Positions 1,042 through 4,516 of a stretch of DNA of 8,648 nt are shown here, in pieces (within the stretch, counting starts at the first letter, position 1; each line of letters begins with the position of its first letter). The DNA comes from Polaromonas sp. YR568 (GTDB lineage Bacteria > Pseudomonadota > Gammaproteobacteria > Burkholderiales > Burkholderiaceae). The notes below the pieces were generated by a model. It was not told the origin of the DNA. It ran no database searches and saw nothing but the letters and a program-made list of their open reading frames with translations. Where the stretch lies: the NCBI GenBank assembly GCA_945871335.1, contig CAMBWM010000091.1:1-8648 (forward strand), written 5' to 3'. The position numbers and the translations under genes are program-made.

Positions 1042-1854
1042 AGGCTGGCCTACCGTGCACCAGCCTGGGCTGCCGTCGTTACCGTACACCCCGGCAATGC
1101 CCAGGGCATGCAGCTTCAGGCGGGCCAGCCCCGCCAAGTCAGCCAGGTATTTTGCTGGCATGCCGGCTGGCCGCAGGCCGGGCAGCACTGCAAAATAAGC
1201 GCCAGAGCCCGGGTGCCAGGCTTCAAAAGCCGCTTTGACCTCGGCCCCCACTTCAAAGGCGCTGGGCCCGATGCACGGCCCCAGCCAGGCAATGGTTCTT
1301 TGGGCAGCCTGCGTCTGGCTTTGCCCTGACAAGTCGGCAAAACGACTAAAAACAGTGCCCAACACCCCCGTCGAAGAACCTGGCAGCCCACCTGCCCCCA
1401 GACCGGCCAGGCCGCGCCAGCCGGCATGGGCTGCAGCCACCACAGGCAGGTCAAGGTGCGCCAACAAAACCGGCAGACAGTCAGCCACCATGATGGTGCA
1501 GCCCAGACCGCGCTGACGGGTGACGGCCGCATCAGCCTGCGGCTCGTTGAGGGCCAGGTTTTGGGTTTCCAGCAAGGCCACCTGCTCACCATGCACCTGA
1601 CGCAAAAAAACAGGCCGGCAAGCCGTGGCCAATGCCAAAGTTTGCCGGTTGGCCGCCACCAGAGAAGGCACATCATGCACATGCTCACCGAGGTTCAGGC
1701 TGTCCCATGACGCGGTCGATTGCCCGCCTGCCCTGCTTGTGAAAACAGCGCGAACCCAGCTGGGAGCAGGCCATTGAGGAATCAACCATTCGGGGTGCCA
1801 GTGCGCGTTCAAGGGGGAATCTTCTTGTTGACCGTGCAGGTCAGTACCTGCCAT
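961..1854 (-). CDS. pgeF: PgeF/YfiH-family purine nucleoside phosphorylase (multicopper polyphenol oxidase 'laccase' domain)
   Basis: This 297-residue protein belongs to the YfiH/DUF152 family. Members have purine nucleoside phosphorylase/adenosine deaminase activity, and in E. coli PgeF keeps peptidoglycan precursors correct. Conserved blocks are visible: SLNLGEHV (52-59), RQVHGE with His88 (85-90), ADCLPVL with Cys126 (124-130), AAHAGWRGL with His143 (141-149), AWLGPCIGPSAFEVG (189-203), KYLADL (235-240) and the C-terminal SFFSHRRD...TGRMAACIW. His88, Cys126 and His143 are the expected zinc ligands. The region between HAGWRG and AWLGP is about 20 residues longer than in E. coli YfiH, with Gly/Ser/Gln-rich inserts. 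The ATG at 1854 is chosen; an in-frame TTG at 1875 would add seven residues. Neither has a good ribosome site. The start overlaps the dnaB 3' end by 14 bp, suggesting translational coupling. The more usual neighbour, rluD, is not present here. Confidence 0.92.
   Translation of the reverse strand: MAGTDLHGQQEDSPLNAHWHPEWLIPQWPAPSWVRAVFTSRAGGQSTASWDSLNLGEHVHDVPSLVAANRQTLALATACRPVFLRQVHGEQVALLETQNLALNEPQADAAVTRQRGLGCTIMVADCLPVLLAHLDLPVVAAAHAGWRGLAGLGAGGLPGSSTGVLGTVFSRFADLSGQSQTQAAQRTIAWLGPCIGPSAFEVGAEVKAAFEAWHPGSGAYFAVLPGLRPAGMPAKYLADLAGLARLKLHALGIAGVYGNDGSPGWCTVGQPSSFFSHRRDTALGHSTGRMAACIWQV
1042..1066 (+). repeat. Inverted repeat just after the stop of the plus-strand membrane gene
   Basis: AGGCTGG (1042-1048) and CCAGCCT (1060-1066) form a perfect 7-bp stem with an 11-nt loop, starting one base after the plus-strand stop codon. 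No T-run follows on the plus strand, so it is not a classical intrinsic terminator. It could stabilise or pause that transcript, but it lies inside the pgeF coding sequence and may be coincidental. Confidence 0.3.
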
Positions 1855-3250
1855 GGTCGCGGGCCATGCTTTCAAACTTGGTGATGCGGTTGAGAAAGGT
1901 CAGCTTGACGGTGCCGGTCGGGCCGTTACGCTGTTTGCTGATGATCACCTCAGCAACACCAGGCTCTTTGCAGGCTTCTTTGGTGTAGTACTCGTCGCGG
2001 TAAATGAACATGATGACGTCGGCATCCTGCTCGATCGCGCCAGACTCGCGCAAGTCACTCATCATCGGCCGCTTGTCTGTGCGCGACTCAACGCCGCGGC
2101 TGAGCTGCGACAAAGCAAGAACCGGGCATTGCAACTCTTTGGCCAGCATTTTCAGGCCGCGTGAAATCTCACCCACGGCGGTGGCACGGTTTTCTTCGCT
2201 CATGCTGCTGGAGACACTCATGAGCTGCAGGTAGTCGACCACAATCAAGCCAAGTTGGCCGAACTGACGAGCCAGCCGGCGTGCATTGGCGCGCAACTCG
2301 CTGACTGTCAGGCCGGGAGTTTCATCAATGTGCAAAGAAATATTGCGTAATTTCTCGATCGATTCAATCAGGCGCGGCCATTCTTCGTCGGTCAGTTTGC
2401 CGGTGCGCAGATGGCTCTGGTCAATGCGTCCGATAGAGCCGACGATACGCACCGCCAACTGGGAAGCACCCATCTCCATAGAAAACACGGCCACCGGCAG
2501 TTCCTCGTTGAGCGCCACATGCTCGGCAATGTTGATGGCCAATGCGGTCTTGCCCATGGAAGGGCGGGCCGCCAGGATAATCAGGTCGCCAGGCTGAAAG
2601 CCCGAGGTCTCGCGGTCCAGGTCATAAAAGCCGGTGGGCACGCCTGTGATGTCGTTGGGGTTCTTCGACATTTCAGTGACACGGTCCAGCAAATTGACCA
2701 CCAGCGTGTCCATGCTGTGAAAACCCTGCTTCATGCGCGAGCCCTGCTCGCCAATCTTGAAAATCTTTTGTTCGGCCTCGTCCAGAATGGTGGCCACGGC
2801 CTTGCCCTGGGGATTGAAAGCCTGGGTTGCGATCTCGTCACTGGCCTTGACCAGCTTGCGCAGGATGGAGCGCTCGCGCACGATCTCCGCGTAGCGACGA
2901 ATATTGGCCGCGCTCGGCACGTACTGCGCCAGGGAATTGAGATAGCCCAAGCCGCCTACATCGTCGGCCTTGCCCTGTGTTTGCAAGTATTCATAGACCG
3001 TGATCACATCGGCAGGTTTGCTGGCGTTGATCAACGCGCCCACCGCGGCATAAACCAGCTTGTGCTCGTAGCGGTAAAAATCCTCGTCCACCAGCAGATC
3101 GCCCACCCTGTCCCAGGCGCTGTTGTCCAGCAGCAAGCCGCCCAGCACGCTGGACTCGCCTTCGATGGAATGTGGAGGTACGCGCAGCTGGGCTATTTGC
3201 CGATCTAGGCTGTAGCTGGCGTTGTCAAGAGCAGAAAGTACGGCGGACAT
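1841..3250 (-). CDS. dnaB: Replicative DNA helicase DnaB
   Basis: DnaB is the hexameric 5'-3' helicase that unwinds the replication fork and recruits primase. This protein has 469 residues, against 471 in E. coli. The N-terminal helical domain (about 22-125, starting [20 protein letters not shown]) is joined by a linker to the RecA-like ATPase (about 195-465). Visible motifs are Walker A ARPSMGKT (228-235), SMEM (257-260), Walker B with LIVVDYLQL (335-343), [10 protein letters not shown] (381-390), the conserved [15 protein letters not shown] (397-411), and SKQRNGPTG (438-446) with the Arg-finger region. No intein or frameshift is seen. ATG at 3250 is preceded by AGGA about 5 nt upstream. It is separated from the ribosomal operon by the rplI terminator and a 220-bp spacer that should contain its own promoter. 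pgeF overlaps its 3' end, so the two are probably co-transcribed. Confidence 0.98.
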
Positions 3251-3298
3251 GGATTTCCTGAGAAGACTGCCATGTTAATGCCACAGCACGCAATGACC

Positions 3299-3319
3299 TC
3301 GGGATAAGTCTGTGGATAA
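3299..3319 (-). promoter_or_regulatory. DnaA box pair upstream of dnaB
   Basis: On the minus strand, 3319-3311 reads TTATCCACA, a perfect match to the DnaA-box consensus TTATNCACA. Twelve bases further, 3307-3299 reads TTATCCCGA, with two mismatches. The pair sits about 50-70 bp before the dnaB ATG, in or near the expected promoter, suggesting that DnaA or a related replication signal controls dnaB. A perfect 9-mer alone could occur by chance; its position before a replication gene raises the odds. It is not proposed as the chromosomal origin: only one perfect box and no AT-rich unwinding region are seen. Confidence 0.5.
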
Positions 3320-3321
3320 GC

Positions 3322-3361
3322 GGTGCAACACAGGTGTAAAAGCGGTGTAATTCCGGTGTAA
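3322..3361. repeat. Four iteron-like GGTGYAA units at exact 11-bp spacing
   Basis: The heptamer GGTG(C/T)AA occurs at 3322-3328, 3333-3339, 3344-3350 and 3355-3361, each start exactly 11 bp after the last. The first unit has C and the other three T at position 5. On the minus (dnaB) strand the units read TTACACC, TTACACC, TTACACC and TTGCACC, each followed by four variable bases. Eleven base pairs is close to one helical turn, so proteins bound to the units would line up on one DNA face. The array directly abuts the DnaA box. The binding protein is unknown; cooperative control of dnaB is inferred. Confidence 0.6.
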
Positions 3362-3412
3362 ATGCTTTCAAAACGGAACTACCCGCTGCTGCACACACTC
3401 AAGAGCGTCATA

Positions 3413-3445
3413 TTGAAAAAGCCGCTCCAAAGAGCGGCTTTTCAA
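3413..3445 (-). terminator. Intrinsic terminator of the rpsF-priB-rpsR-rplI operon
   Basis: Read on the minus strand, GCCGCTC and GAGCGGC pair around a TTTG loop (plus-strand positions 3421-3427 and 3432-3438), immediately followed by five T residues. A-rich sequence before the stem also pairs with the T-run. The hairpin begins about 25 nt after the rplI stop codon. The near-symmetrical flanks mean it could also work on the plus strand, although no plus-strand gene ends here. It separates the ribosomal operon from dnaB. Confidence 0.9.
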
Positions 3446-3470
3446 GAAACGCAGATGCGCTTTGAGAAAC

Positions 3471-3923
3471 TTAAGCGGTTTCGCCGTAGACCGTGACGGT
3501 CACGTCAACGGTGACATCGGTGTGCAAAGCAACGCTCACCGGATGGTCGCCAACAATCTTCAAGGGGCCATTCGGCATGCGGATCTGGGATTTCAGCACA
3601 GCAAAGCCTTGCTTGCTCAGTTCCTGGGCGATGTCAGAGTTAGTGACAGAGCCAAACAAACGACCATCGACACCGGCTTTTTGGGTCAGCTTGACGACGG
3701 TGCCGCTCAGCTTTTCACCCTGCGCTTGCGATTCGGCGAATTTAGCCGCGGCGATTTTTTCAAGTTCAGCTCGCTTGACCTCAAATTCCTTGATGGCCAC
3801 TGCGGTGGCGCGGCGTGCGCGGCCCGAGGGGATCAGGAAATTACGAGCGTAACCGTCTTTGACTTTAACGACTTCACCCAGATTGCCCAGGTTCACGACT
3901 TTGTCGAGCAGAATGATTTGCAT
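3471..3923 (-). CDS. rplI: 50S ribosomal protein L9
   Basis: L9 binds 23S rRNA near the base of the L1 stalk and supports reading-frame maintenance. The protein has 150 residues, the usual length (E. coli 149). The N-terminal RNA-binding domain carries [34 protein letters not shown] sequence, here residues 1-30, including the GYARN signature at 24-28. A long charged connecting helix follows (about 40-75), then the C-terminal domain with [10 protein letters not shown] (85-94) and a Thr/Val-rich end. ATG at 3923 is preceded by TAAGGAG six bases upstream, the TAA being the rpsR stop codon. It is the last gene of its operon, followed by a strong terminator. Confidence 0.98.
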
Positions 3924-4228: not shown

Positions 4229-4516
4229 TTAAATGGGGTTCAGTTCTTGAATATGAAAAATGACGCTCTTGTTGGTGCGCGCACTGATAAGAAAACCGCT
4301 GAACTTGAAGGTCTGCCCCAAAGGCAGCCGACCGGCCTGTTCGGCCAAAGCACCAAAAGCAACAGCCTTGATGCTCAGTTTGACTTGCCGGGTGGTTCCT
4401 GCTTCGGTGACTTCAGACTCGTGATCGAGAACAAAGTTAACAGCGGGAAGACCGGCTGGCGTGTAACGCAGAGGGCTTGCCTCCACAATACTCGCCTTCA
4501 GATCAACATGGTTCAC
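4229..4516 (-). CDS. priB: Primosomal replication protein N (PriB)
   Basis: PriB is a small single-strand DNA-binding protein of the OB-fold/SSB type. It stabilises PriA at stalled forks and helps reload DnaB. The protein has 95 residues, with [29 protein letters not shown] (6-34), [11 protein letters not shown] (45-55), [13 protein letters not shown] (64-76) and the C-terminal VIFHIQEL (85-92), matching betaproteobacterial PriB. The start is a GTG at 4514-4516: a TGA stop lies directly upstream in frame and no in-frame ATG follows nearby, so GTG is forced. No Shine-Dalgarno sequence precedes it, and the gap from rpsF is 50 bp, unlike the tight ribosomal gene junctions. The weak start probably lowers PriB output relative to S6, S18 and L9. 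Confidence 0.93.

Follow-up and report, generated by a model that had tools for sequence, protein, structure and literature searches.

Clusters of DnaA boxes serve as titration or reactivation sites in E. coli, and plasmid iterons are short, helically phased direct repeats that lie beside a DnaA box. The DnaA protein of E. coli is reported to favour pairs of boxes with 2 or 3 bp between them, the DARS2 site being described as a double box bound by DnaA (PMC11317965), and the low-affinity sites of oriC are described as lying 2 bp apart and as being occupied from strong sites next to them (PMC6070618, PMC4285127). DnaA has also been connected with dnaB, the gene of the replicative helicase: in M. 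tuberculosis it is reported to bind upstream of dnaB, and a mutant form binding less there under-expresses the gene (PMC7738170), while Caulobacter dnaB is assigned to the DnaA regulon, with predicted boxes (PMC8203912). Two further reports deal with DnaA boxes at other places, dnaB being unmentioned in their available parts (PMC2864759, on Cupriavidus, and PMC12914326), and among the titles and opening lines of abstracts listed from the open-licence literature, none concerned a DnaA array at the dnaB gene of Burkholderiales.

At the locus presented here, the DNA upstream of dnaB likely carries, judged from sequence comparison, a one-way, helically phased array of DnaA boxes that would bind DnaA cooperatively at the dnaB promoter, probably with an activating effect. 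The original prediction for this DNA had been an iteron-like element recognized by its own GGTGYAA-binding protein.

The dnaB locus and the register of its repeats

The window, by which we mean the whole stretch of 8,648 bases that was analysed, carries rpsF, priB, rpsR, rplI and dnaB, all on the minus strand. The best named match to its DnaB, at 90%, is from a MAG labelled Polaromonas sp. YR568, the window thus being a relative of Polaromonas and Rhodoferax. Upstream of dnaB the row includes another replication gene, priB (replication restart; 4229-4516, minus strand), flanked by rpsF and rpsR. The spacer between rplI and dnaB measures 220 bp and contains, in the order read on the dnaB strand, a hairpin near its start and the array (3299-3363), followed by the dnaB start at 3250. 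The features are the following.

3471..3923, minus strand: rplI, 50S ribosomal protein L9, upstream neighbour of dnaB on the same strand (TIGR00158)
3408..3452, minus strand: stretch with a terminator-like hairpin after rplI (fold -20.1 kcal/mol, z -5.1)
3355..3363, minus strand: DnaA-like box 1, ATTTACACC, 6/8 matches to TTWTNCACA; in register, outside the best chain
3344..3352, minus strand: DnaA-like box 2, AATTACACC, 5/8; in register, outside the best chain
3333..3341, minus strand: DnaA-like box 3, TTTTACACC, 7/8; member of the best chain
3322..3330, minus strand: DnaA-like box 4, TGTTGCACC, 6/8; member of the best chain
3311..3319, minus strand: DnaA box 5, perfect, TTATCCACA, 8/8, the likely anchor site; member of the best chain
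3299..3307, minus strand: DnaA-like box 6, TTATCCCGA, 6/8, with a 3-bp gap from box 5; member of the best chain
1841..3250, minus strand: dnaB, replicative DNA helicase, 469 aa (TIGR00665, 575.5 bits)

With a terminator-like hairpin after rplI, dnaB would depend on its own promoter; the hairpin is not among the matches of a pattern scan, and an Rfam search of the window matched no family. Among the genomes compared, DnaB matches start or stop near residues 232-235 in G275, G290, G293, G298, G336, G342, G343 and G346, the frames with such broken matches having 824-1250 codons, as expected of putative helicase-domain inteins.

The heptamer GGTGYAA, originally taken as the repeat unit, occurs in the window exactly four times and exactly where it had been placed, at 3322-3328 (GGTGCAA), 3333-3339, 3344-3350 and 3355-3361 (GGTGTAA). 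Four copies are unremarkable for the window as a whole, this count being reached by 57/200 shuffles; their clustering and 11-bp phasing within the spacer do exceed chance, as had been claimed, since four heptamers are found in 0/20,000 dinucleotide shuffles of the 220 bp, and the same result (0/20,000) is obtained for two heptamers at 11 bp and for five CAC sharing one period, whichever value between 7 and 30 is taken. When the search was widened, as a look-elsewhere check, to any exact 6-mer in three successive copies at one period, 2/5,000 shuffles qualified. The look of the repeats would in itself suit plasmid-type iterons or chance; we consider both extremely unlikely, chance in view of the 0/20,000 shuffles and iterons because none of the seven named window ORFs that were tested is a plasmid rep gene, the neighbours being rpsF, priB, rpsR, rplI and dnaB.

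The perfect DnaA box, TGTGGATAA (3311-3319), had been described as abutting the array. It is present, and it is more than adjacent: its GTG at 3312 falls in the same 11-bp register as the heptamers, forming with them a run of five GTG (3312, 3323, 3334, 3345 and 3356), so that the box constitutes the fifth in-register unit. The degenerate box TTATCCCGA (minus strand, 3299-3307) follows 12 bp beyond the perfect box, one base off register. On the minus strand, that is, in the sense of dnaB, each heptamer is the core of a DnaA-box-like 9-mer and the gaps are of 2 bp, which turns the presumed iteron of a new regulator into a DnaA-box array; the natural unit is best taken as a 9-mer plus 2 bp on this strand, rather than a heptamer plus 4 bp. 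Helical phasing and the position upstream of dnaB, both part of the original prediction, are borne out by this register and by the gene calls.

Besides the perfect box, the array has up to five weak ones, all boxes lying on one strand, in 11-bp steps with one 12-bp step (11, 11, 11, 11 and 12 bp from start to start). By matches to TTWTNCACA, which were counted by hand, boxes 1, 2, 4 and 6 are weak (5-6 of 8), and in boxes 1-4 the final base is C, not the A of DnaA boxes. The best chain of the window comprises boxes 3-6 and is equalled by 0/3,000 shuffles; boxes 1 and 2 contribute nothing to its score, though they are in register. The hallmarks of a DnaA-box cluster are present, namely consensus 9-mers including a perfect one, gaps of 2-3 bp and a single orientation.

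Response regulators of the OmpR/PhoB type use direct repeats of 7+4 bp, for example in the Pho box. The same 11-bp geometry would allow another protein, such as a regulator of this type, to bind GGTGYAA as 7+4-bp direct repeats, the DnaA box being a neighbour, and the four heptamers of the window are indeed more alike than DnaA boxes need be. We regard this as very improbable, because the perfect DnaA box is itself an in-register unit and because of the fate of heptamer and register in the relatives, which is considered below.

Conservation of the boxes and loss of the heptamer

In the two nearest relatives, with 84% identity along the 240 bp queried, all five CAC cores and the register are unchanged, with variation in the unit starts and linkers: TCGCACC or TTGCACC stands in place of the second heptamer and CTGCACC in place of the fourth, the position of box 5 reads TTGTCCACA in both and box 6 is identical in both. 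The exact tandem TTACACC-N4-TTACACC, for which a genome scan had been suggested, is found in 0/87 genus genomes (exact form only, the window's own assembly lying outside this set), and the loose form TT[AG]CACC-N4-TT[AG]CACC is limited, among 198 dnaB upstream sequences, to the window and one sister genome (entries L002 and L031). The heptamer is rejected on these counts as a conserved unit, and a near-identical unit kept in relatives, as iterons would have, is not seen. Conservation in relatives had been expected of both units and spacing, and it holds for the spacing while failing for the heptamer. Since the register is occupied in relatives by DnaA-box-like 9-mers, there is no support for an iteron-like element recognized by a GGTGYAA-binding protein of its own; this occupation, and the 0/87 for the exact tandem, also weigh against an OmpR/PhoB-type regulator. 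A DNA similarity search of 61 genomes with the whole spacer listed 33 places, and in 29 of these the match is confined to the part surrounding the rplI hairpin (query positions 15-74); among the matches listed, those of G001 and G031 are full length and those of G006 and G028 cover positions 39-240.

What the relatives keep, as far as predicted boxes go, is thus not the heptamer but same-strand DnaA-like boxes at 11- and 12-bp steps. In 74 non-redundant dnaB upstream regions, sites with at least 7/8 matches to TTWTNCACA number 112 in sense versus 8 in antisense orientation, with some dnaB anchors possibly misplaced because the start was located by protein motif. (These regions come from 98 usable of 141 sequences, the remaining usable ones being redundant or short; in 43/141 no dnaB start was found or the sequence was not a dnaB locus). 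Distances between 6/8 boxes in these regions peak at 11 bp (39 pairs), 12 bp (30), 22 bp (38) and 33-34 bp (19 and 22), the shuffled means for these peaks being below 2 (1.7 at 11 bp) and the antisense pairs at 11 bp numbering 2. A set of 99 family genera, one genome per genus (from 100 of 120 genomes with a dnaB match, L300 being dropped as short), gives 30 pairs at 11, 48 at 12, 36 at 22 and 20 at 33 bp, against shuffled means of about 1 or less and antisense counts of 4, 6, 4 and 0, respectively; some organisms are shared between the two sets, and the counts are not independent because the sequences are related. Gaps of 2 or 3 bp correspond to 11 and 12 bp from start to start, so the two peaks seen in the relatives are the same as those expected from the pairs that E. 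coli DnaA favours.

A chain test (p <= 0.02) built on TTRTNCACA, a pattern picked after the sequences had been inspected and used also for the chain scores and for the promoter alignment below, is passed in sense orientation by 81/99 family genera, 78 by two or more boxes and 3 by a single strong box, and failed by 18/99; antisense passes amount to 19/99, antisense counts being inflated by partly palindromic boxes such as TTGTGCACAA. Chain scores of at least 13 are reached by 76/99 genera in sense and 5 in antisense orientation, versus 5/2,122 background tiles of neighbouring DNA, which omit the dnaB upstream DNA by position, though loci short at a contig end may add some. By a plainer criterion, which asks for one or more pairs of 6/8 boxes at 11 or 12 bp, the textbook TTWTNCACA gives 50/99 sense and 2 antisense, and TTRTNCACA gives 63/99 sense and 10 antisense. 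Runs of at least three boxes at 6/8 each are present in only 9/99 genera (antisense 0), so that relatives commonly have a pair, or a chain that includes weak boxes, and in most of them it is strong boxes separated by weaker ones that carry the longer register. From 144 paired units one obtains the consensus TT[G/A]T[C/G]CACA followed by G, which is a description rather than proof, because the units were selected by similarity to the box.

The box motif also emerges from unbiased k-mer enrichment, though not at the top: the leading words belong to rplI coding sequence, the terminator and the dnaB start, and TTATCC, TCCACA and TCCACAG come next, nearly all of them in sense orientation (antisense 1-3 of 74). 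Among strict double boxes collected genome-wide (30 of 31 genomes) and compared with known rplI/dnaB places where comparison was possible, only those of G037 and G070 lie at dnaB, and the dnaB boxes are therefore mostly weaker than the strict pattern.

Outside the family the picture changes. The chain test is passed by 2/39 genomes from other families of the order (antisense 3; 37/39 fail) and by 1/20 from other orders of the class (antisense 1), these sets deriving from 40 of 89 genomes with a dnaB match (39 plus L201, which belongs to the window's family and is not counted) and from 20 of 75, respectively. The plain pair criterion is satisfied with TTRTNCACA in 3/39 (antisense 1) and 0/20 (antisense 1), and with TTWTNCACA in 3/39 (antisense 1) and 0/20 (antisense 0). 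Simple counts in the 39 genomes of other families give 3 pairs at 11 bp versus a shuffled mean of 0.4, and DnaA-like sites number 65 sense versus 84 antisense; with so few pairs and this strand ratio, there is no general excess. Few genomes of other families or orders have the array, which is therefore not a general feature of dnaB, and the predicted boxes identify it as a trait of this one family, with losses. A phased DnaA-like chain is carried at dnaB by L210 and L219 of other families and by L244 of another order.

Presumed promoter geometry and proposed role of DnaA

Because a consensus promoter scan of the window called no promoter, the placement of the dnaB promoter rests on the family alignment, from which the following elements are presumed.

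3295..3300, minus strand: presumed -35 hexamer of dnaB, GAGGTC, a poor match, placed by family alignment 17 bp from the -10
3272..3277, minus strand: presumed -10 hexamer of dnaB, TAACAT, 33 bp after box 5 and 21 bp after box 6

When 70 sequences are aligned at a -10 of the form TA[N][CG]AT (a pattern picked after the sequences had been inspected), boxes at 11 and 12 steps appear together with a TGACG-like -35 and a 17-bp spacing, the family consensus of the -35 being xTGACG. In 53/60 scorable sequences a -10-like motif follows the end of the last strong box at 20-21, 32-34 or 44-45 bp (41/101 sequences were unscorable, having no strong box or no matching -10 after the box, or being too short), and the distances found in the window, 33 bp from box 5 and 21 bp from box 6 to the -10, are the two commonest among relatives. 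The array would thus lie directly upstream of the presumed -35 of the dnaB promoter and slightly overlap it, box 6 sharing 2 bp with this hexamer, in the family consensus as in the window. A fixed box position, as expected of a promoter controlled by DnaA, is therefore found with respect to the presumed -10, whose own position comes from the alignment.

Clusters of DnaA boxes act as titration or reactivation sites in E. coli, and the array might likewise serve mainly in this way, as a datA- or DARS-like site, or be a cryptic origin, and take no part in the transcription of dnaB. This appears very unlikely, since neither the strong excess of one orientation nor the fixed distance to the presumed dnaB -10 is needed for titration; moreover, where oriC, datA and DARS would lead one to look for opposed arrays or for clusters outside a promoter, the boxes lie on one strand and in register with the presumed -10, and a better candidate, with facing arrays, exists at mucD-lepA (see below). 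The apparent locking of the boxes to the presumed -10 is more in keeping with an element of the promoter than with an independent titration site.

DnaA bound to the same array could also be a repressor that covers the -35 and shuts dnaB off when DnaA is abundant, as the 2-bp overlap of box 6 with the presumed -35, common to window and family consensus, would permit. We think this rather doubtful. DNA upstream of the -35 and in phase with it is the typical site of activator binding, and it is there that most of the boxes lie. The presumed -35 of the window is poor, which argues against a repressor and would fit an activator-dependent promoter. Moreover, the DnaA mutant of M. tuberculosis is reported to bind the dnaB promoter more weakly and to under-express dnaB (PMC7738170), the opposite of what repression would give.

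DnaA is, in our judgement, highly likely to be the binder of the array, and its action on dnaB is somewhat more probably activation; ATP-DnaA may be the form required at the array, and helicase supply may be coupled to initiation. Boxes of the sequence TTATCCACA are also present in 30 dnaA loci of the genus, in the flanks of which box pairs are commonest at 11 bp (40), with 36 at 18 and 35 at 30 bp, these being counts with no shuffle control.

For an activating array we propose that DnaA would anchor first at TTATCCACA (box 5), and that ATP-DnaA would then spread cooperatively, upstream over the weak boxes 4 to 1 and downstream to box 6, in the manner of the low-affinity arrays of oriC. The resulting complex on one face of the DNA would contact RNA polymerase at a promoter whose -35 is poor, so that dnaB transcription would track the level of active DnaA and helicase supply would be tied to initiation capacity. 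The suggestion of a replication-linked operator controlling helicase supply was, we infer, probably right.

Other DnaA-box sites were encountered in the genus. The N-terminus of LepA is encoded in 18/30 strict double-box loci (L171, L175, L176, L178, L179, L181, L184, L185, L188-L191, L193, L194, L196, L197, L199 and L200), with the site around position 1501; in the four that were viewed (L171, L175, L178 and L189), it has lepA on one side and on the other a mucD/degP-like gene, both identified by eye in the ORFs. Both strands score at least 18 in 17/18 of these sites, some chains partly rereading the facing boxes, as in the example TTATGCACA-NN-TTATTCACA facing TGATCCACA-NN-TCACCCACA-NNN-TTGTCCAGA. 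The mucD-lepA site, which is also present in the nearest genome (G001), is a candidate for titration or reactivation, or for control of lepA. A double DnaA box, TTATCCACA-NN-TCATCAACA, stands beside dnaK in 3/30 double-box loci (L173, L186 and L192, around position 1501), and directly upstream of it in L173 and L186.

A wider scheme may be put forward tentatively, and we would sooner doubt it than rely on it: the dnaB promoter of this one family of Burkholderiales would carry an oriC-like array on which an ATP-DnaA filament, formed only when ATP-DnaA is plentiful, switches the helicase gene on, and the conserved mucD-lepA site, marked by the same phasing, would be a second member of a small regulon sensing ATP-DnaA. 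In titles and opening lines of abstracts of the open-licence literature searched, such a regulon is not described for these bacteria. The proposed role of the dnaB array bears on how bacteria match helicase supply to initiation. If it is right, one family would have wired its helicase promoter to the initiator by the same code of 2-3-bp gaps that E. coli uses at oriC and at promoters, cooperative assembly of ATP-DnaA would become readable outside the origin through a simple promoter reporter, and several dozen genera would provide a natural set varying in box number and strength.

Comparison with known DnaA systems

Like the window, plasmid iterons combine a DnaA box with adjacent short direct repeats that are helically phased; the window differs from them in having no rep gene among its seven named ORFs, in a unit that is itself DnaA-box-like and in its location at a chromosomal dnaB promoter. 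The double DnaA boxes of E. coli, as described in the available part of the report (PMC11317965), are similar in that tandem 9-mers with gaps of 2 or 3 bp, one strong and one weaker, lie upstream of their targets. They are pairs, however, whereas the window has up to six one-way units (many relatives having only a clear pair), and no dnaB target is named in that part of the account of the E. coli DnaA regulon (PMC11317965). The low-affinity arrays of E. coli oriC, to judge from the accessible portions of PMC6070618 and PMC4285127, share with the window weak sites 2 bp apart and a strong anchor, but comprise two opposed arrays and an unwinding region, whereas the window has a single array directed toward a promoter.

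In C. crescentus and M. tuberculosis, dnaB has predicted boxes or bound DnaA upstream and an expression tied to DnaA (PMC8203912, PMC7738170), as is proposed for the dnaB of the window. No phased array is described in the portions of these papers available, and the two organisms belong to distant lineages, with 37/39 genomes of other families in the window's own order failing the chain test. The action of DnaA at dnaB (Caulobacter, Mycobacterium) and the 2-3-bp spacing of boxes (E. coli) are accordingly known already, as far as the accessible parts of these reports go; what seems new is the phased, promoter-locked, one-way layout of boxes that is kept across the family and extends to six boxes in the window.
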